Shown one piece after another: positions 1,887-34,827 of a DNA stretch of 34,827 nt (the stretch's first letter is position 1; each line of letters starts with the position of its first letter). The position numbers and the translations under genes were made by a program. The stretch lies in the NCBI GenBank assembly GCA_019695305.1, contig JAIBAG010000024.1, forward strand, positions 1 through 34,827, read 5' to 3'. The notes below the pieces were generated by a model, which saw only the letters and a list, made by a program, of their open reading frames with translations, had not been told where the DNA came from and searched no databases. The DNA is from a bacterium (GTDB lineage Bacteria > UBA10199 > JAIBAG01).

Positions 1887-2210
1887 ATGTATCATTTTCT
1901 CAAATATCTTCTCTTGGTTTTATTTATCCTCATTATTTTTCTATTTTTCTATTCTAACCACACGGTTACGGTAAGTTTAGTGATGGATTTGCCGTTTGTT
2001 GACGATTTAGCTTCACGTCCTATCCCGGTTATTTTTCTGATTATGGGTTCGTTTGTGGTGGGTATTTTATTTGCGGCTTTTATTGGTGCTTTTAGAATGG
2101 CACTGGTAAAGGAAGAAAAGAGAAGGCTTGTTGAATTAAGAAATCCTGTGGTCCCAACTTATACACCGCCTGCGGATCCTAATACGCCGTCGTTACCACC
2201 GCTTGCTTAA
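1887..2210 (+). CDS. LapA-domain (DUF1049) inner-membrane protein
   Basis: This is a small membrane protein with two hydrophobic segments (about residues 4-22 and 44-67 from the ATG at 1887), the pattern of the LapA/DUF1049 family linked to lipopolysaccharide assembly. The C-terminal tail is basic, then proline-rich. An upstream in-frame ATG at 1866 would add MVDSSTS, but those codons come from dispersed repeat family A, so the ATG at 1887 (MYHFLKYL) is the more likely original start. Neither start has a clear ribosome binding site. The gene ends convergently with the minus-strand gene at 2207; the two stop codons share bases 2208-2209. The role in envelope biogenesis is by family only. Confidence 0.72.
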   Translation: MYHFLKYLLLVLFILIIFLFFYSNHTVTVSLVMDLPFVDDLASRPIPVIFLIMGSFVVGILFAAFIGAFRMALVKEEKRRLVELRNPVVPTYTPPADPNTPSLPPLA

Positions 2211-2929
2211 CCGCTAATCTTTTTAGGTGGTCTTTTTAACGATTTAAGATCAACCGTTTTAGAGGTATCAATTTTTTGTTTAACCGGTGCTCCGGCTTTG
2301 TTTTGAAGTGATTTAAACTTTTTAAGCTCTTCTTCACTTTCAAATTGCCCCGCTACAAATTTAGAAACGTCGCGATTTTCGTTTACTTCTCTAAAATCTT
2401 TTTCACGTTCTTTGCGCAGGCGGCTTACTTCAATTTCAAGTTTGCGACGAGGAGAGGGGAAACGGTCGATTAAATATCCTAATTGGGTTTTAACCGTTTT
2501 GTTTACAAGAAGACGGCCATTTTGCTGCAAGCCTTCGCGCTCTTTAAGAGCTTTAATCATGTTAAAATAAACCTGTTCGGGCACTGTGGATGACGGTTTA
2601 ATACTGCGATGATAAAGTTTGGCCAAATCATCGTCGGTCCATTCACCTTCGCGTACCTTGCTAGCATCAAAAGGTTCAAATACCGGGCCTACATACCTAA
2701 ACTTGCGCAGCGATAAAAATTTTTCTTTGGTTAAAATGTAAGAATCGTCGTCTTGTTTGCAATCTTCAAAAGCGGCTTTCCATTGCTCGTAGGTAAACTG
2801 GTTGGAATCAACAAAACCGTTTTGGTAGAGATAGGGCAGGTCGCCTAATAAATAGCGGACGTTTCCCTCTTTGGTTTTGGGAATACGGTCCCAAATGTAT
2901 TCCATTGCGTCTTTAAATTCTTCTGTCAC
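2207..2929 (-). CDS. Unrecognised 240-aa charged protein
   Basis: I do not recognise this protein. It is hydrophilic, rich in Lys, Glu and Asp, with no signal peptide or membrane segment. The middle and C-terminal thirds are probably helical, with a basic stretch around residues 155-185 (RKLEIEVSRLRKEREKDF) that could form a coiled coil. The start is GTG at 2929, supported by a strong ribosome binding site AGGGGGA a few bases upstream. It is the third gene in a minus-strand series with the genes at 3033 and 3482 but is separated from them by three consecutive hairpins (2945-3034). If it is transcribed from the sigma-28-type promoter at 4175-4203 it belongs to the same unknown gene set; this is inference. 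Confidence 0.72.
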   Translation of the reverse strand: MTEEFKDAMEYIWDRIPKTKEGNVRYLLGDLPYLYQNGFVDSNQFTYEQWKAAFEDCKQDDDSYILTKEKFLSLRKFRYVGPVFEPFDASKVREGEWTDDDLAKLYHRSIKPSSTVPEQVYFNMIKALKEREGLQQNGRLLVNKTVKTQLGYLIDRFPSPRRKLEIEVSRLRKEREKDFREVNENRDVSKFVAGQFESEEELKKFKSLQNKAGAPVKQKIDTSKTVDLKSLKRPPKKISG

Positions 2930-2944: not shown

Positions 2945-3034
2945 GGCTTTTTGCGAAGCCCTCATGCAGCTTTGCTGCATAAGTGTTTGTAGTCAATATA
3001 ACTTAGCTTCTCTAAGTTATATTGAACAAACACT
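2945..3034 (-). other. Three consecutive stem-loops between two minus-strand genes
   Basis: Reading leftwards on the minus strand there is first a long hairpin, 2982-3034. Its stem is 23 bp with a 2-nt bulge (AGTGTTTGT and TCAATATAACTTAG arms) and its loop is 5 nt. Next is a perfect 7-bp hairpin ATGCAGC-TTT-GCTGCAT at 2964-2980. Last is a 5-bp hairpin GGCTT/AAGCC at 2945-2960. None is followed by a T-run. The longest overlaps the stop codon of the gene at 3033. They could act in termination, mRNA stability or as a structured leader of the next gene. Confidence 0.7.
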
Positions 3035-3452
3035 ATCCAGTCCAGTAAGAAGAGCTTTGGCGATCTTCGTAACGGCGTAAATCCAAATCGTAATCTTGTT
3101 CATTTTTAAGTCGCTTGTTTTCTTCTTTATCAATAGCGGCTTGTCCCATCATTTTGGCGGCTTCGGCACGCGGTACATCCACTTCAAAAATGCGGGTCAT
3201 TTCTTCTTTATGGCTAAGCTTGGCTTCAAGCTCGCGCACGCGCAGCGCTTCCATTTGTGTACGCTCGTACGATTTAGATTCGGCAATGCGTGCCATGTAA
3301 TCGTACTTGGCTACCTCTACCGCACCCAGGCGTTCCTGGCGAGCGGCGTATTTTGTAGCGTCGGCTTCAATTTCCGATTGATGCACATTGGCATCCGCCT
3401 GCATCTTGGTTGCCTGTGTATAAAACTCATTATATGCTGCACCACCACCCAT
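3033..3452 (-). CDS. Unrecognised ~139-aa helical protein, probable coiled coil
   Basis: I do not recognise this protein. Apart from a Gly-rich N-terminus (MGGGAAYNEFY) and an aromatic tail (YWTG), it is a nearly unbroken run of charged and Ala-rich helix, suggesting a rod or coiled coil. There is no signal peptide or membrane segment. The start at 3452 (MGGGAAY) is chosen over the in-frame upstream start at 3470, because AAGAAAGGAAAC just before it gives a ribosome binding site. The stop of the upstream gene at 3482 lies 29 nt away, so the two are co-transcribed, probably from the sigma-28-type promoter at 4175-4203. The stop codon lies inside the right arm of a long hairpin. Confidence 0.7.
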   Translation of the reverse strand: MGGGAAYNEFYTQATKMQADANVHQSEIEADATKYAARQERLGAVEVAKYDYMARIAESKSYERTQMEALRVRELEAKLSHKEEMTRIFEVDVPRAEAAKMMGQAAIDKEENKRLKNEQDYDLDLRRYEDRQSSSYWTG

Positions 3453-3481: not shown

Positions 3482-4153
3482 TTAAGCCATGCCTGTACTT
3501 TTAGACGGGGGAGCCATTCCTCCACCGCTTGGCTGTAAATTATTGTTCGACATACTTCCTTCAACGGTCATGCGCCCGGCACTTGATATAGGCGTTCCGG
3601 CATCGGCCATAAGAGCGCTGTTGCCTTGCATGGGATCGGCCTGAGAATTTTGAAAGAGGGCCTCATCCGTATTTCCTAATCCTTCATCGTTTTTCCCCAA
3701 GTTGTTGCCGGTATCCATGAACCTGGCTTCCGAATCCATAAGCCCGGCTTCTTCTTCGGCACCCATGGCCAACATTTCGGTATGAACGAGCTCGCCCGTT
3801 TCGGGATCCACCTGCGAAAAATCATGTTGTTTTCTAAAATCGGCCCGTGCCGTTTCTTGGGCCTTCACACGTTCATGCATGCCTTTTAAATCAAGGAGCG
3901 GACCAATTTTACCTTTACTCATGTTGCCATCCACAACACTGGCACCGGTTTTTTGACCTAATTTTTCATACAAATTTTTTTCGTCTTCACTGGGCGCTTC
4001 GGCCGAGCCTCGTTGCTGGTTGCCACTGAGTTTAGCTTGCTCCTGAGCCGCTATACCATCGGGTGAATTTTGTTTAGCAATAGCATCAGGGCTATGTTGA
4101 TCCACACCATCGTTATAAGCAGTACTTTGATTGGCCTGTAATGCATCAACCAT
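3482..4153 (-). CDS. Unrecognised 223-aa low-complexity protein behind a sigma-28-type promoter
   Basis: I do not recognise this protein. It is acidic and low in hydrophobic residues, rich in Asn, Gln, Gly, Ser, Asp and Met, and is probably largely disordered. There is a small internal repeat near the N-terminus (HSPDAIAKQ, then NSPDGIAAQ). There is no Sec signal peptide. The ATG at 4153 has a weak ribosome binding site (GAGGAAG) upstream. A sigma-28-like promoter ends 21 nt before the start. It is the first gene of the leftward series 3482, 3033 and possibly 2207. Lack of a Sec signal, disorder and a FliA-type promoter would fit a protein handled by the flagellar export apparatus or acting beside it, but nothing in the sequence proves this. 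Confidence 0.72.
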   Translation of the reverse strand: MVDALQANQSTAYNDGVDQHSPDAIAKQNSPDGIAAQEQAKLSGNQQRGSAEAPSEDEKNLYEKLGQKTGASVVDGNMSKGKIGPLLDLKGMHERVKAQETARADFRKQHDFSQVDPETGELVHTEMLAMGAEEEAGLMDSEARFMDTGNNLGKNDEGLGNTDEALFQNSQADPMQGNSALMADAGTPISSAGRMTVEGSMSNNNLQPSGGGMAPPSKSTGMA

Positions 4154-4174: not shown

Positions 4175-4203
4175 TTATCGGCCAAACCCATTTTATAAGT
4201 TGC
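4175..4203 (-). promoter_or_regulatory. Sigma-28 (FliA)-type promoter P1
   Basis: On the minus strand the -10 core GCCGATAA lies at 4182-4175 and GCAACTTA at 4203-4196, with 13 nt between. The -10 core is identical to the FliA/sigma-28 consensus. The same pair recurs at 7449-7477, 8421-8448 and 32105-32131. An imperfect dyad around 4197-4236 (AAGTTG...GGGGT and ACCCC...CAACTT) overlaps the -35 side and could be an operator. Confidence 0.75.
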
Positions 4204-7448: not shown

Positions 7449-7477
7449 ACAACTTTACCCTCTGCTAAAGCCGATAA
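7449..7477 (+). promoter_or_regulatory. Sigma-28 (FliA)-type promoter P2
   Basis: ACAACTTT (7449-7456), 13 nt, GCCGATAA (7470-7477). The -10 core equals the FliA consensus. The core ends 20 nt before the ATG at 7498. Confidence 0.78.
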
Positions 7478-7497
7478 ATAAAGGGAGAGGATTAATT

Positions 7498-8394
7498 ATG
7501 ACAGTAGCAGCCGATTTAAAACAATGTGACACCAGTAACTATGACGCTTTTGATTACCAGGCCAGCGAATCTCAGGTTTTGGATAACTACATGGAGCGCC
7601 AAGACGAATGTCGCGAGGATGGCGGAAATGCTAAAACGGGAGTGAGTACAGTTGGAAGTATTACTAATACAGCTGTAACGCAAACACTAGAAGCGAGTGC
7701 CGAAGCGGGAACCGAAGCTGGCACTGAAATAGCAGCAACTACAGGTTCAGAAATAGCTGGTGAATGTGCAGTTGAAACGGGAAGCACTGTTGCTACAGAA
7801 GTAGCGGGAGAATGTGCTGTTGAAGTAGGAACTACTGTAGGTACGGAAGTGGTTGGGGAATGTGCCACTGTAGGTACAGAAGCTGCTGTAGTGGCCGGAA
7901 CTGAAGCGGGTGTTGCTGGTGGAACAGCCGGCGGTGCGGCAGCTGGTGGTGCTGGTGCGGCTGGTGCGGCTGGTGCGGCTGGTGCAGCTGGTGCAGCTGG
8001 TGCGGCTGGTGCTACTGGTGCTACTGCTGGAGCAACTGCCGCTGTAACCGGTTTAAGTGCTGCTGCGGCTGGTATATCGGCTACAGGCTATGGTGCTATT
8101 GTAGGGGCTGTTTTGGCAGTAGCTGCTGTTTTAGTTTCTGTTTTTACCGGTCAGGATAGTGCAAAGGAACAAGCTTTGGCTGAAGCTAATACTAATGGCC
8201 TGGGCGGTGGTGCTTCAACTACAGGTGATGGCAAGCAGAAGGTTGGTGGAGCTGCCAGTGCAGAGGGACAAAAAGAAGTAGCAAGTACCAGCCAATCTTT
8301 GGGTGGTGGTGCTATGGAAGTTGAAGCAACAAATAAAGGACAGGTAACACAGGCTGTTACAGATGGCGAGCAGGTACAAGCTCAAGTTGCATAA
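7498..8394 (+). CDS. Ala/Gly-rich repeat protein, 298 aa, behind a sigma-28-type promoter
   Basis: I do not recognise this protein. The first 50 residues are ordinary and polar. Residues about 65-130 hold degenerate repeats built on GECAVE-GTTV-GTEV, three of them containing the cysteine of GECA. Next comes a run of GAA/GAG triplets (about 145-180), encoded by near-perfect GGTGCGGCT/GGTGCAGCT DNA repeats. A hydrophobic, Gly-rich stretch (about 195-222, GYGAIVGAVLAVAAVLVSV) could insert in a membrane. The C-terminal 75 residues are polar and disordered-looking. No Sec signal peptide is visible. A good ribosome binding site (GGGAGAGG) precedes the ATG. The composition is unlike that of the housekeeping neighbours. 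It could be a surface or filament-associated structural protein; that is a guess. Confidence 0.75.
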   Translation: MTVAADLKQCDTSNYDAFDYQASESQVLDNYMERQDECREDGGNAKTGVSTVGSITNTAVTQTLEASAEAGTEAGTEIAATTGSEIAGECAVETGSTVATEVAGECAVEVGTTVGTEVVGECATVGTEAAVVAGTEAGVAGGTAGGAAAGGAGAAGAAGAAGAAGAAGAAGATGATAGATAAVTGLSAAAAGISATGYGAIVGAVLAVAAVLVSVFTGQDSAKEQALAEANTNGLGGGASTTGDGKQKVGGAASAEGQKEVASTSQSLGGGAMEVEATNKGQVTQAVTDGEQVQAQVA

Positions 8395-8420
8395 TAATTG
8401 ATGGTTTTTTACCCCTAAAG

Positions 8421-8448
8421 GCAACTTTGAGGGAGGAAATGCCGATAA
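8421..8448 (+). promoter_or_regulatory. Sigma-28 (FliA)-type promoter P3
   Basis: GCAACTTT (8421-8428), 12 nt, GCCGATAA (8441-8448). The core ends 20 nt before the ATG at 8469, the same distance as P2. That the second Ala-rich gene has its own promoter, although it lies only 74 nt after the first, argues for separate sigma-28 control. Confidence 0.78.
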
Positions 8449-8468: not shown

Positions 8469-8942
8469 ATGTCAGTACAAAATACATCGCGTAAACATGG
8501 TTTTGATTATGGTACGGAACAAACAAAATATCTGCAGATGCAACAAGCTAAAAAAGCTCAAGATAGCAAAGATCTTCAGAGCGGCTTAGGCTATGCAAAA
8601 ATGGCTTATGGTGTTGCCGATGGAATTTGTAAGGCTGCTAATGATGGAACAGGAATAGCAGAAACTGCAATACAGGGAATTAAAACAGCTAGTGAAACAG
8701 CCAAAGCTACTAAAGAAGCCGCCCAGGCTGCTGAAGAAGCTGCCAAAGCTGGAACTGAAGCTGGGCAAGTTGCCGGTGATGTTGCTGCTGAAGGGGCTGA
8801 AGTGGGTGCTCAGGTTGGTAGTGAAGCCGCAAATGCCGGTGTTGAAGTGGGGGCAGAAGTGGCCCAAGCTGCTGTGCCTGCCGCTGCTGAAGGTGCAAAA
8901 GTAGCTGCCGATACGGCTACTGCGGTAGTTGGCGCCTTATAA
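8469..8942 (+). CDS. Ala-rich helical repeat protein, 157 aa, behind a sigma-28-type promoter
   Basis: I do not recognise the family. The N-terminal third is polar (MSVQNTSRKHGFDYG). From about residue 65 on the protein is a continuous Ala/Glu/Lys/Gly helix with degenerate short repeats of roughly 4 and 11 residues (EAAQAAEEAAKAGTEAGQVA), resembling LEA-type or apolipoprotein-like amphipathic helices. No Sec signal peptide is visible. The ribosome binding site AAGAGGAGA precedes the ATG. It shares composition and promoter type with the gene at 7498. A clear intrinsic terminator follows at 8968-8995. Confidence 0.76.
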   Translation: MSVQNTSRKHGFDYGTEQTKYLQMQQAKKAQDSKDLQSGLGYAKMAYGVADGICKAANDGTGIAETAIQGIKTASETAKATKEAAQAAEEAAKAGTEAGQVAGDVAAEGAEVGAQVGSEAANAGVEVGAEVAQAAVPAAAEGAKVAADTATAVVGAL

Positions 8943-29020: not shown

Positions 29021-31978
29021 CTATTCGTGCTTAATTTCATCCAGCTTGGCGGCTGCGCGGCGTATGGCTTCCAGTAATGCCGGATATTGTTCGCGCATGG
29101 CTTTATGCCAAATCACAAAATCGCGGCCGTCGGCTACGTTTTGGGCTACTTTATCGGGTGCAAATTTATAAGCCACATTAATGCCGCTGGCGAGCACCAC
29201 ATACCACATTTCGCCTGTGTCTTCATTAAAGGCCCAGTCGCCGGCATCCACTTTAAGATCATAGCTGTGTTTGTGCTCATCTTCGCTTTTATCATGCTGT
29301 TCCTTGTAGTTATCGGTGGCTATCGTCCAGGGGAGATATGCTGTATTTCCTTCAATAACGGGTTTTAATGAAATAGCCTCGGATGTAAAAACACCCATGC
29401 CCATATCTAAATACTGGTATACATCAAACTGACCCGGTGTGCTGATGGGGTTTCCGGTTGCCTCATCACGATAAGTAGGATTAAGAGGGTTAGCGTAGCC
29501 GCTGCCTTCCAGCAAACGGTTATCTAAACACACACCTGTTAAACCAGCTCTCATTTTTTGTACACCGGTAGCAACTACCTCGCCTGTATCTTTACGCTTT
29601 AAGGTATAAAGGCCATCGTTAAATGGAAAACTTTGTTCTGTAGTGTCGGTGCGTTCGGCAATTAGTTCGTTGCCATCCATGTCATAAATGGCGTCACGGT
29701 GTTTTGGGTCTTTTTCAATGGCTACAAAAATTTGATCTACCGATTGGCCACCATTACCGGTTGCCACATAATAGGTACGGGCTTCGTGCAATGGATAGTC
29801 GGTAAGGGCCCTTAAGAATTCTTCTTTGGTAAAGTCGTGTGTAACAAGCTTGGCGCCAATTTCACCCGATTTCCCTTCGGTGACCAGTTTTTCGCGCAGC
29901 ATATCGTTAGATTCGTCTAACTGATACACAGTAACTTCGCTGGCTGTATCGTTAGGAGTGCGTGCAAAACCATTTAATTGAAATGTATTGCCATCCGCCT
30001 TCCAGCGCGCAGGGTCGGTAATAACCGTACTCATCAAGGCTTCGGTTTCATCTCTAAAGGGGCCTTGTGCCGGTGGCTTGGCCGGGCGGATATTCATTTT
30101 TTCGGTTACATACGCATCTACTTTATCCATGAGTTCCATCAGTTGTTCCAGCAGGCCTTGTATTTGTGCTACGTTTTCATCCTGCATGATGACTTCCATC
30201 ACTTTGTCTTTATAGGCTTGCGCAGTAATAATAGCGGCATCTACCAAGGCTTGACGGGCTTGTTGTGCGCTAGGTGTATCTAATGTGAGAGCATCGGTGG
30301 TTAATTTAACACCTTCTACGCCCACCAACTGTAAAAAGGCCTCGCGTGTGCCGGGTTGGTTGAGGGCTCCAATCACCAAATTAATAGCAGCTGCATTCAG
30401 AAGGTCCAGTTGCGCTTTGAAAGTGGGATCATCTTTAAGAGTTGTTAACGCTTGAGTAGTAAAACCCATCATCGAAAGAGCGGCTTCTCCAAAAAGTTTT
30501 TTAAACTCGGTATCGTTAGGAAGGTCTTTTACAATTTCCAACGTGGCCGTAATGTATTTGGGGGCAACACGCTGATAAGCCGCTACAACACGCGGATCGC
30601 CACTAGCCAAAACTCCGTGTTGCATAAGAACGGGAGCCACTTCATCCAAAGCGGCCACGGCTTCCTTGCTTCCGGCGGCGCGGATGATATCGGCTGTCAT
30701 GGCTTCCAAAATGGGTTGTAAGAGTGGGCGTAAGGCTTCAAATTGTTGAGGGATTTGTTCTTTGATTTGAGCAATAATTTCTTCTTGATGGCTTAATAGA
30801 TATTGCTTGATAGCTTCGGGAGCACTACCTAAACCTTGTTCTAAAATAACGGTCGTCCATTTTTCTAATGTAGAACCAATGGCGTTTACAATTTGATCGT
30901 TTTCGGCCCAATCCCCGCCAAGCCTTATCAATGCCGCAATTGTATCCGGATGTTTTTCTAGTGAAACAGGTAAGTAAGTAACAACGGTATCAACGGCTTC
31001 TCGTGTGACTGCTTCGGGTATGCTTTTGGGTGCTTCAGGATCAATAGGAGAAGGTGGCATAGTAGAAGCGGGTTCATCAAAAAGAAAATCGGTTACATGG
31101 CCTATTCCCCATATGGGATGAGTGACGCTGGTTATTCCCCGGTTGGCATCTGTAGCTCGCGTTGATTCGCGTTCAAAACCTTCACAGTAATCACGTGAAA
31201 CAGGCAAGGCTCTTCCGGTAAGTATGCTTCTTTCAAAAGAAGAAGTGCTTAAGCAAAATTCGGCGGAAGCAAGGTTGCGAAGATACTCGCTTAAGATATC
31301 AAATGACTCACGATATTTGGGTATGTAAATATCATTGCTGCTTTGTGAAGAATTTTGCCTAATTTTTATTTCGGCCTGACGCAGGAGACGTTTTACAATA
31401 TACCACTCGCCCCATGCTACTTGCGTTAAATCTACATTTTTAACAAAAGCTGAAATGTAAGCATGATCTATATTGTTTTTTGAGCCGTTTAAAAAGGCCA
31501 TGAGGTCGTCTTGGATATAATGCACATTTTCCAAAAGATCATCGCTTCTTGCATCGTCACCTATGTTGTGATTTTGGGTAAAGTAATAGCGAATAAAATA
31601 ATTTTTATAAGGGTCAAAATTGAATTTTTCTAAAATTGGGCTACCAGCTAAAGCCATAGCATCATCACTGGTGCTGCTGTTTGATTGTGGCCAGGTGAAA
31701 TCTTCGTAAATAATAGATTTAGAATCTTTTTTAATTTCCCACTGAATACCAAAGTTTGGGTCGGTCCATACTTCAATGGTGGTAACGCGGTAAAAATCGT
31801 CTAACTCTTCGGTAACAGTAAATTCCGATCTGGGTTTAGTCCAGTCAAATTCTCCTTCAATAGAAACGATGCCAGGTTTTAGTTTGTATAAGTCATCGCT
31901 TAAATTGGCGCGTAAAAGTGTATCGTCGATGGCGTTAAAAGCCCATGCCGCCCGGGCTATTCTTAATGAATCAACCAT
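29021..31978 (-). CDS. Very large unrecognised protein (985 aa) behind a sigma-28-type promoter
   Basis: I do not recognise this protein. The start ATG at 31978 (MVDSLRIARAAWAF) is chosen because GAAGGGAAAG precedes it; an upstream TTG at 32017 lies inside a hairpin. Three regions are visible. The N-terminal 300 residues are mixed and rich in aromatic and acidic residues. The middle (about 320-640) is helical and rich in Ala, Leu and Gln (EEIIAQIKEQIPQQFEALRP), resembling an alpha-solenoid or coiled rod. The C-terminal 330 residues are probably beta-rich. There is no Sec signal peptide or clear membrane segment. It has its own sigma-28-type promoter (32105-32131) and a structured leader. It may be exported by a non-Sec route or act in the cytoplasm; nothing decides this. 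Confidence 0.78.
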   Translation of the reverse strand: MVDSLRIARAAWAFNAIDDTLLRANLSDDLYKLKPGIVSIEGEFDWTKPRSEFTVTEELDDFYRVTTIEVWTDPNFGIQWEIKKDSKSIIYEDFTWPQSNSSTSDDAMALAGSPILEKFNFDPYKNYFIRYYFTQNHNIGDDARSDDLLENVHYIQDDLMAFLNGSKNNIDHAYISAFVKNVDLTQVAWGEWYIVKRLLRQAEIKIRQNSSQSSNDIYIPKYRESFDILSEYLRNLASAEFCLSTSSFERSILTGRALPVSRDYCEGFERESTRATDANRGITSVTHPIWGIGHVTDFLFDEPASTMPPSPIDPEAPKSIPEAVTREAVDTVVTYLPVSLEKHPDTIAALIRLGGDWAENDQIVNAIGSTLEKWTTVILEQGLGSAPEAIKQYLLSHQEEIIAQIKEQIPQQFEALRPLLQPILEAMTADIIRAAGSKEAVAALDEVAPVLMQHGVLASGDPRVVAAYQRVAPKYITATLEIVKDLPNDTEFKKLFGEAALSMMGFTTQALTTLKDDPTFKAQLDLLNAAAINLVIGALNQPGTREAFLQLVGVEGVKLTTDALTLDTPSAQQARQALVDAAIITAQAYKDKVMEVIMQDENVAQIQGLLEQLMELMDKVDAYVTEKMNIRPAKPPAQGPFRDETEALMSTVITDPARWKADGNTFQLNGFARTPNDTASEVTVYQLDESNDMLREKLVTEGKSGEIGAKLVTHDFTKEEFLRALTDYPLHEARTYYVATGNGGQSVDQIFVAIEKDPKHRDAIYDMDGNELIAERTDTTEQSFPFNDGLYTLKRKDTGEVVATGVQKMRAGLTGVCLDNRLLEGSGYANPLNPTYRDEATGNPISTPGQFDVYQYLDMGMGVFTSEAISLKPVIEGNTAYLPWTIATDNYKEQHDKSEDEHKHSYDLKVDAGDWAFNEDTGEMWYVVLASGINVAYKFAPDKVAQNVADGRDFVIWHKAMREQYPALLEAIRRAAAKLDEIKHE

Positions 31979-32104: not shown

Positions 32105-32131
32105 TTATCGGCATGGCCAGTAAAAAGTTGC
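32105..32131 (-). promoter_or_regulatory. Sigma-28 (FliA)-type promoter P4
   Basis: On the minus strand GCAACTTT (32131-32124), 11 nt, GCCGATAA (32112-32105). The 11-nt spacing equals the classical FliA spacing. The core ends 126 nt before the start at 31978, leaving room for a structured leader. Confidence 0.75.
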
Positions 32132-32251: not shown

Positions 32252-34827
32252 TTATAGGTCGCCTGTATCAGCGAGAGTAATGGCAACTTCTTTTTTAACT
32301 CCACCTTGAAGTTCAATAACAAAGGTAATGGTGGCGCCGTAGTATGTGTGGGTGCCACTAGCTAGTGGGTTTTCTAGTATAGATAATATGTGATAGCTGT
32401 GGTCAGTTGACGGCTCAACAAGAAAATATTCAGTTTTAATGTCCGGTAAGATAGTGCCATCAGCCAATTTGGCTTTTATGGTTATTGGTTTTTTTACATC
32501 ATTGCTGTTTATACCCCTTAAATTAAATTGAAACATTTGAATATTGGCATAGTTTCTTCCTTGGTAATCTGTGTCCAAGGTAACAGTTACTGTACGGTCT
32601 GCTTCAAAAGCTTTGCATCTTTCAAGGGCAGCTTCGTAAATACGTTGCGCTGTTCTTATTTGAGTGAGCAAAGCCTCTTTTTTAGCGGCAGCACCTTTGG
32701 TGCTAGGATCTCTTACAAAAGCATAAGCCGATAACAACGTGTTGTTGATATCAATGTATTTATCGCGTGTGGCCTCAAAGTTGAGGTCACTGGCAGGGTC
32801 ATAACTTTCTGCTGTTGTTTGATTTTCTTCAGTGGGAATTGAGAGCTCAATAGCTAGCTTAATAGTAGCCCACGAATCTTTAGAGTCTAAATTTAAATCA
32901 ACCTCAGTATCAGGTTTATAAATATCTTCTTCCAAAGCAGCTTGAGCTTCTTCAAATGAGGAGAGTGCAGGTACAGGTTCATCGGTACCAGCAAGAGCCT
33001 GGCGTCCGTACGCAACGGCCGATGTAAAGGCATCGTAACGTTCTTTATATTTTGAAATTAGTGTTTGAATACGCTCTAAAGTTGTTTGAGCAATATCGTG
33101 TTTATGGCCTTTTGGATGTTTTGTAAGATACGCCTTTAAGTTTGCTTCATCATCTTTTAAGCTGTTCAGTTTACCAGTAATTTCTCTTAAGCTTGCCGTG
33201 TCTTTATCTAAGACGTTGAGCACTACATAACAAGGCGGATATACAGTGTTGTTTTTCTGTGCAAGGTCTTTAACGTCTGTCCAATGTAATACGATTGCTG
33301 TTCTCTGTTCGGGAACCTTAAATTCCACCTGTTCCATGGCTGTTACAATATCTCGTACCTGTTCCAAAGCCGCTTCGGCGGCTTTTACTTCGGCTTCATT
33401 AACATAAGTAAAGCCTTGGGTAGAGGTGCCGGCAGGGTCTTTATCATCGGCGTGGCCCAAGTGATGGCCGTGGTCGGCTAAATTGCCATAATCATCTTCA
33501 AGGGTAATAGGGGCAGATGCTGTTGTTGTGCCATTCGATTGCGCTGTGTGCCAAACAAGTTGGCCTCTAATAATGGTAGAGTTGGGGATATTGCCATTAG
33601 CTGCATTGGTGCTAATGGTATGCTCACCATTTACTATTACTTCATCGCCGGTAATGCTAGCTGAGCGGATGATGGTGTCAAAGTCTACAAAACCGTCTTC
33701 TACGTTAAAAATGCTCACATAACCGTGGTTATAAGGGTCTTGGTAAAACTCTCCCATTTCTTGTTCGTTGGTGGGTAAAGCTACATCGGGACGAACAATT
33801 ACCAATTGTAATCCGCGATCTTTTATCGCTTCGGTAGAGTCTTTGCTATATTCGGCAGAGCCTTCTTTATAATCGCCATCGGAAGCGGTGTATTTGTAAT
33901 TACCTTGGTCATCGTAGCTTGAAGGTAAACAATGCAAGTTTTCACCGGTAGAAAGTACATGGAGTTTACCGCTTAAATCTATGCCCTTTTCCTTGGCCAT
34001 GAGTTTAAGAATATGTTCAATAATTTGGGCGCGTCTTTTAGAAAGTGGGTTATTAGTTTTAACAGCATTGCCGTCTTGGCTGGCCGTAGCATTGAGTACA
34101 ATTTGATAGCCACCACCTAAATCGATAATGCCCATGATGGTGTCATACATTTTTTGCATTTCACGTTTCATTTCTTCTAAACGAGGGCCAAAAATGGTGC
34201 GTTTTGTTTGATCGCCAGATTTAAGGGTGGCCGCCATTTGCCAAAAGGCATCTAATGTAGTGGTTTTTAAAAGTTTATCGGCCTGTGTTGTGTAAGGACG
34301 GCCAATTTCAAATTTTACCGCATTAGGATCAAAATCTTTAAATGTCATTGCAAACGGGGAGGCAATAGACAAGAAATCGTCCACGGTTTCGGGCTGGTAA
34401 TCATTGTGTTTGGTAACATAATGATTGATAAAATCGATATTCATCAAGATTTTAGGATCAGCTTTAGAACCCCATACCATCACCAGTTTATCTTCAAAAA
34501 TTTGTTTGCCACCTTCGAGGGCCAGTTTGTCGCCAAGCATTTTGGGAACGGGTCTAATTTCGAGACGCAAGGTTCTTTTAATTTCTTCCAAACGCGCATT
34601 GTAAGCATCGTTTGCAGGAGTGCCGGCCGGTTTTTTAAGGCTGTCAAATACGGCGGCGGCAGCTATGCTTAAACGATCGACTGGATTTTTGGTGGTGACG
34701 CCATCCGCATTAAACGGGTTGTTATCGCTATTTTCAAACATGCGTAACGCATCTAAGGCAATTTGTTGTTCTAGAGCGCCAATATCACAATCCGGCCGTT
34801 CATAAACAGGGTCTACATGTAAATCGG
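32252..34827 (-). CDS. Large protein with an OmpA-like domain, 5' end beyond the window
   Basis: The frame is open from the stop at 32252 to the right edge, with no stop codon after the ATG at 34741. That ATG may be internal, and the upstream codons read plausibly (YERPDCDIGALEQ). Counting from it, residues about 140-335 resemble an OmpA C-terminal peptidoglycan-binding-like domain. It opens with AVKFEIGRPYTTQADKLL, shows a core NATASQDGNAV and NPLSKRRAQIIEHIL, and ends with RGLQLVIVRPD. An insertion rich in Gly, Tyr and Asp interrupts it. Helical segments follow (about 445-650) and a beta-rich C-terminus. Whether it is exported cannot be judged without the N-terminus. It lies directly upstream of the 985-aa gene on the same strand, but a terminator and a separate promoter intervene. 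Confidence 0.8.
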   Translation of the reverse strand, partial: DLHVDPVYERPDCDIGALEQQIALDALRMFENSDNNPFNADGVTTKNPVDRLSIAAAAVFDSLKKPAGTPANDAYNARLEEIKRTLRLEIRPVPKMLGDKLALEGGKQIFEDKLVMVWGSKADPKILMNIDFINHYVTKHNDYQPETVDDFLSIASPFAMTFKDFDPNAVKFEIGRPYTTQADKLLKTTTLDAFWQMAATLKSGDQTKRTIFGPRLEEMKREMQKMYDTIMGIIDLGGGYQIVLNATASQDGNAVKTNNPLSKRRAQIIEHILKLMAKEKGIDLSGKLHVLSTGENLHCLPSSYDDQGNYKYTASDGDYKEGSAEYSKDSTEAIKDRGLQLVIVRPDVALPTNEQEMGEFYQDPYNHGYVSIFNVEDGFVDFDTIIRSASITGDEVIVNGEHTISTNAANGNIPNSTIIRGQLVWHTAQSNGTTTASAPITLEDDYGNLADHGHHLGHADDKDPAGTSTQGFTYVNEAEVKAAEAALEQVRDIVTAMEQVEFKVPEQRTAIVLHWTDVKDLAQKNNTVYPPCYVVLNVLDKDTASLREITGKLNSLKDDEANLKAYLTKHPKGHKHDIAQTTLERIQTLISKYKERYDAFTSAVAYGRQALAGTDEPVPALSSFEEAQAALEEDIYKPDTEVDLNLDSKDSWATIKLAIELSIPTEENQTTAESYDPASDLNFEATRDKYIDINNTLLSAYAFVRDPSTKGAAAKKEALLTQIRTAQRIYEAALERCKAFEADRTVTVTLDTDYQGRNYANIQMFQFNLRGINSNDVKKPITIKAKLADGTILPDIKTEYFLVEPSTDHSYHILSILENPLASGTHTYYGATITFVIELQGGVKKEVAITLADTGDL

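Follow-up and report, generated by a model that had tools for sequence, protein, structure and literature searches.

HrpL of plant-associated bacteria is an ECF sigma factor with the hrp box GGAACC-N16-CCACNNA. It is a dedicated alternative sigma factor encoded with the injectisome, and one box is found both at the apparatus operons and at scattered effector genes. For the flagellar sigma factor FliA (sigma-28), the consensus promoter has been quoted as TNAAG-N14-GCCGATA (PMC3333780). In Chlamydia, sigma-28 is known for hctB and few other genes, and the type III secretion operons have sigma-70-like promoters, according to the same paper (PMC3333780) and to the title of reference B35 in it. Literature searches, with incomplete coverage, returned no description of an injectisome regulon of the sigma-28 type.

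The window, i.e. the whole stretch of DNA analysed here, is the whole of contig C24 (34827 bases), one of 58 contigs in a 2.78-Mb genome that is 95.6% complete. The initial annotation had recognised four FliA-type promoters in it. All four were recovered in place, each with a perfect GCCGATAA, which is the FliA -10 box, and with CAACTT upstream. The distances to the start codons (21, 20, 20 and 126 nt) and the gene sizes (223, 298, 157 and 985 aa) were likewise reproduced. Counted from CAACTT, the spacers measured 14, 14, 13 and 12 nt, and the sites are named by this number:

4175–4203, reverse strand: promoter of the long-spacer class N14; exact GCAACTT-N14-GCCGATAA, 27.8 bits; 21 nt 5' of the 223-aa gene.
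7449–7477, forward strand: promoter of the long-spacer class N14; ACAACTT-N14-GCCGATAA, 27.6 bits; 20 nt 5' of the 298-aa gene.
8421–8448, forward strand: promoter, N13; GCAACTT-N13-GCCGATAA, 28.5 bits; 20 nt 5' of the 157-aa gene.
32105–32131, reverse strand: promoter of the short-spacer class N12; GCAACTT-N12-GCCGATAA, 32.9 bits, the top score in the window; 126 nt 5' of the 985-aa gene.

In a matrix scan, the four sites scored 27.6–32.9 bits, compared with at most 16.1 bits elsewhere in the window and at most 17.3 bits in shuffled sequence. Of the 11 occurrences of GCCGATAA by itself in the window (1.26 expected), the seven outside these sites had no -35 box. The four sites are a real, promoter-like set. 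The genes behind them, with their followers, are:

3482–4153, reverse strand: 223-aa orphan, first gene behind its promoter; no Sec-like N-terminus; candidate for type III export.
3033–3452, reverse strand: 139-aa coiled-coil-like follower in the same likely operon, after a 29-nt gap; no family above cut-off.
2207–2929, reverse strand: 240-aa orphan follower, after a 103-nt gap; no family; single-sequence model with a pLDDT of 44.
7498–8394, forward strand: 298-aa orphan rich in Ala and Gly; a single hydrophobic segment, GYGAIVGAVLAVAAVLVSVF; no Sec-like N-terminus; possibly translocator-like.
8469–8942, forward strand: 157-aa Ala-rich orphan; no Sec-like N-terminus.
29021–31978, reverse strand: 985-aa orphan; no Sec-like N-terminus; single-sequence model with a pLDDT of 36; putatively effector-like.

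None of the four first-gene proteins matched a Pfam or NCBIfam model and their N-terminal hydropathy was low, in line with the earlier description of proteins with no recognised domain and no visible Sec signal. Against the PDB, the 985-aa protein gave a match at chance level only. No homologues of window proteins were found among the reading frames of the fetched loci, which included the injectisome and regulon genes of relatives. Structure prediction was rejected as a route to a fold for the 985- and 240-aa proteins because of the pLDDT values listed above. By analogy, the 298-aa and the adjoining 157-aa proteins are reminiscent of a translocator pair, and the comparisons below make it probable that the genes of the window belong to a type III secretion regulon. 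An 829-aa protein (32252–34741, reverse strand), encoded upstream of the 985-aa gene, likewise has neither a domain above cut-off nor a relative in the PDB; between the start of its gene and the contig end lie 86 bases.

Genome-wide work consisted of pattern searches and fetched stretches. The shared motif claimed for the window also held for the 2.78-Mb genome, where CAACTT-N12–15-GCCGATAA had 21 exact sites (none with N15) versus one for the reversed pattern. A phylum-wide search with GCAACTT-N12–14-GCCGATAA yielded 659 sites versus two for a control pattern, in 46 genomes all belonging to one class. At least one exact site was present in 40 of 40 class-level genomes (window genome included), several of which had one to four sites, a number near the uninformative level. 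The motif lies before genes: 89 of 99 sites were intergenic, i.e. outside open reading frames, versus 11 of 66 other occurrences of GCCGATAA (Fisher p = 2e-22; both counts from the same loci, which came from many genomes and were fetched because of the motif). A motif equally common inside genes, named in the initial annotation as evidence against promoters, was therefore not observed. In the fetched loci, the median distance from site to start codon was 30 nt; behind some sites, a clear gene was absent. GCCGATAA alone was rejected as a marker, because without the -35 box it lay mostly inside genes.

The 40 class-level genomes linked the motif to an injectisome. A second, SctV-like FHIPEP protein was encoded in 39 of them, including the window genome, whose SctV scored 796 bits against the SctV model (cut-off 692) and 702 bits against FlhA (cut-off 772). 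Relatives had non-flagellar type III secretion genes distinct from the flagellar versions, with SctV (782 bits), SctN and SctR above cut-off and SctJ as the best match below cut-off. In fetched clusters, a relaxed motif with no match in 374 kb of reversed sequence preceded the sctJ operon, headed by a gene of 167–193 aa, in 12 clusters representing up to 11 families. It also preceded an operon headed by a hydrophobic 132–167-aa gene and carrying a sigma factor gene in seven clusters, and sctV in two. Conservation of the sites at injectisome operons was thus observed directly. In the window genome, an exact site precedes an isolated sctU. The gene adjoining its sctV shares 35% over 301 aa with a gene located behind an exact N14 site in genome G012. 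This sctV-adjoining gene (L078:6018–8339, contig C18 of the window genome, G000; its homologue is L117:350–2044, G012:C8) encodes a thioredoxin domain and an N-terminal part that appears caspase-like by eye. The type III set found in the window genome, SctV and SctU, is incomplete; SctJ, SctN and the cluster sigma factor were not found in its assembly, the last despite a search with a 14-row profile that admitted E values up to 1. A single assembly gap would explain the missing sctJ, sigma and sctN genes, since they are neighbours in relatives.

A FliA-like sigma factor (118–148 bits) was encoded in most of the 40 genomes, often on the sctV contig because its gene lies inside the injectisome cluster. 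In the fetched clusters, it follows sctJ and precedes sctL-sctN. TIGR02479 was matched over the full length and as the best subfamily, with scores under the curated cut-off of 189.6 bits, which points to a divergent relative and not to FliA proper. In a tree that had long branches and included two FliA proteins, the cluster sigma factors formed one clade apart from FliA (support 96/98). Compared with solved structures of the sigma-28 family, region 2.4 is kept (FRTFAYYRIKGAIYDGLRKTGWIPRS) and the region 4.2 helix is altered from ESRVSQ[IL]H to KSWTSRLH, which is nearly invariant across 14 aligned members. These features fit the promoters, with the -10 box of FliA retained and TNAAG replaced by GCAAC at -35. 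Location, co-distribution and the match of helix and box suggest that the cluster sigma factor reads these promoters; self-activation is likely because its gene sits in an operon with a motif-bearing promoter. A second candidate sigma factor was not found. Sigma factor and sites did not coincide everywhere: genome G024 (99% complete) had 12 sites and neither the sigma factor nor SctN, G023 had one site without either, and family f14 had the sigma factor with few exact sites. The injectisome-type sigma factor of G006 (L099:1007–1603, G006:C91) is only 198 aa long, with most of region 3 missing; the same genome had 52 sites, the maximum among the genomes searched.

Spacer lengths in the class-level site list were bimodal, with 89 N12, 16 N13 and 45 N14 sites. 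The -35 and -10 boxes were identical in both classes; the spacers differed in GC content (58% for N14 versus 38% for N12). With N12, GCAAC and GCCGATA stand 14 nt apart, as is normal for sigma-28; N14 is 2 bp longer. Apparatus promoters were of the N14 type in 21 of 22 cases and N13 in the remaining one, with none of N12 (p = 2e-9 versus the site list, the 22 promoters being partly orthologous and hence not independent). Orthologues in different genera retained their spacer class, and homology among regulon genes fell mostly within N14. On a plain reading, N14 is the mark of apparatus and accessory genes that are conserved, and N12 mostly that of lineage-specific genes. An inverted repeat of at least 4 bp was noted in 13 of 56 long spacers (4.4 expected, the excess being partly inflated by orthologous promoters). 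The repeats share no sequence (e.g. CACCTGCAGGTG, L087:13132–13159), and hint at a possible MerR-like regulator or a hairpin.

We consider it probable, and are fairly confident, that the sites are promoters of a dispersed, phylum-conserved injectisome regulon read by a dedicated, cluster-encoded sigma factor of the sigma-28 family. RNA polymerase with this factor would read the sites through a FliA-like region that still recognises GCCGATAA and through an altered region 4.2 that would favour GCAAC over TNAAG. By driving its own operon, the factor would probably amplify itself. The longer, GC-rich N14 would serve the conserved apparatus operons and N12 mostly the lineage-specific genes. By this spacer rule, the 985-aa gene would encode an effector, and the 223-, 298- and 157-aa genes would be apparatus-like or have an early accessory role, for instance as translocators. 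A more far-reaching proposal is put forward tentatively, at slightly under even chances: in this uncultured phylum, a private sigma-28 descendant with altered -35 reading would run the injectisome, with spacer length as a two-level code for apparatus versus lineage-specific effectors, so that effector repertoires could be read from DNA. Counting against the main account are the lack of the cluster sigma factor, SctJ and SctN in the window genome's own assembly, genome G024, family f14, regulon members that are not injectisome substrates (such as a hopene cyclase, lipoproteins and exported proteins), and window proteins without a homologue tied to secretion.

The initial annotation had read the sites as late flagellar FliA promoters of a motility-coupled gene set, perhaps encoding filament accessories or substrates of flagellar export. 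The -10 box is indeed that of FliA, N12 corresponds to sigma-28 spacing, and the window genome encodes a flagellum with flagellins. The fliA gene on which that reading depended is present: it closes an ordinary fliMNOPQR-flhB-flhA-flhF-flhG-fliA cluster, and its product is a true FliA whose score of 208.6 bits exceeds the family cut-off. However, the expected motif was found before none of the flagellar genes fetched in the window genome, even at one mismatch in GCCGATAA (fliC, fliD, flgK/flgL, part of flgB-fliF, flgFGAHI and fliMNOPQR-flhBA-fliA, with motA/motB and chemotaxis loci outside this set). Flagellar FlhA together with an above-cut-off FliA occurred in 4 of the 40 class-level genomes, and the motif was abundant in relatives without them. 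With place-conserved sites at injectisome operons and a -35 box other than TNAAG, a flagellar regulon, rejected by the promoter scans and the distribution over relatives, is very improbable. The described set of sigma-28-family promoters over scattered genes mostly lacking a Sec signal stands; its tie to flagella and motility is not supported. The suggestion of type III exporter substrates came close to the preferred reading, although the exporter is most likely the injectisome and not the flagellum. As separate observations, the flagellin promoter of the window genome (G000) lacks GCCGATAA, and its FliA (L026:8880–9773) has DILPRS in region 2.4 where sigma-28 relatives have DW[IV]PRS, so that its -10 preference may differ. 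A takeover by this FliA was considered as well, in which the regulon would descend from that of the injectisome sigma factor, the cluster and its sigma factor would have been lost here, and the flagellar FliA would now read the sites. Such a history would suit an assembly with FliA, without the injectisome sigma factor, SctJ and SctN, and with perfectly kept sites. It is nevertheless unlikely: besides the atypical DILPRS in place of the [WA]-type motif, this FliA has an ordinary -35 helix (ESRVSQIHSQ), the flagellar genes carry no motif, sctV and sctU are still present, and one assembly gap suffices for the genes that are missing.

The regulon probably extends beyond effectors alone. It takes in lipoproteins, a matrixin-like lipoprotein, large exported proteins and very large signal-less proteins (988 and at least 2841 aa), and a hydrophobic N-terminus was present in 17 of 92 downstream proteins. 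Further members are an 815-aa protein carrying DUF4116 (E 1e-10; L040:4317–6764, G000:C44) and a 367-aa protein that matches the M91 'effector protein' peptidases below threshold (L036:7870–8973, G000:C17). A perfect short-spacer site stands 44 nt upstream of a squalene-hopene cyclase gene (L031:7162–9180, G000:C3:132000–150000), and hopanoid synthesis may thus be co-regulated with secretion. A shared EF-hand was sought in effector-like proteins and dropped, as 5 of 82 were too few. The hydrophobic N-termini, the hopene cyclase, the lipoproteins and large exported proteins, together with the different GC content of the spacer classes, would agree with a general sigma regulon for stress, envelope or host contact that includes the injectisome genes without being centred on them, N12 and N14 perhaps belonging to different factors. 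We regard this as improbable, because it is at injectisome operons that sites have kept their place across families, the injectisome cluster contains the sigma gene, and both classes have the same -35 and -10 boxes with no second candidate factor found.

If the injectisome regulon is confirmed, a short DNA string would list the apparatus of a poorly known phylum together with its candidates for export, homologue-less proteins included. The system would parallel the HrpL regulon as an independent counterpart derived from the flagellar sigma family, and would bear on how injectisomes, as relatives of flagella, gained their own regulation. With its two spacer classes, it would lend itself to testing directly whether a single sigma factor grades or orders expression by spacer length.

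The system resembles the FliA regulon in its -10 box, the spacing of the N12 class and its sigma family. It differs in its GCAAC -35 box, in sites that do not lie at flagellar genes, in a sigma factor that forms a separate clade and has a different helix in region 4.2, and in an extra class with a spacer 2 bp longer. Like HrpL, one alternative sigma factor would serve the apparatus and scattered effectors via one recognisable box; unlike HrpL, the factor best matches FliA/WhiG and is encoded in the sctJ-sctN cluster, and the box is GCAAC/GCCGATAA, in place of an ECF factor and an hrp box. Chlamydia likewise retains a sigma-28 factor alongside an injectisome with scattered genes. Its type III operons, in the literature cited above, have sigma-70-like promoters, whereas here a sigma-28-type motif stands at the injectisome operons.
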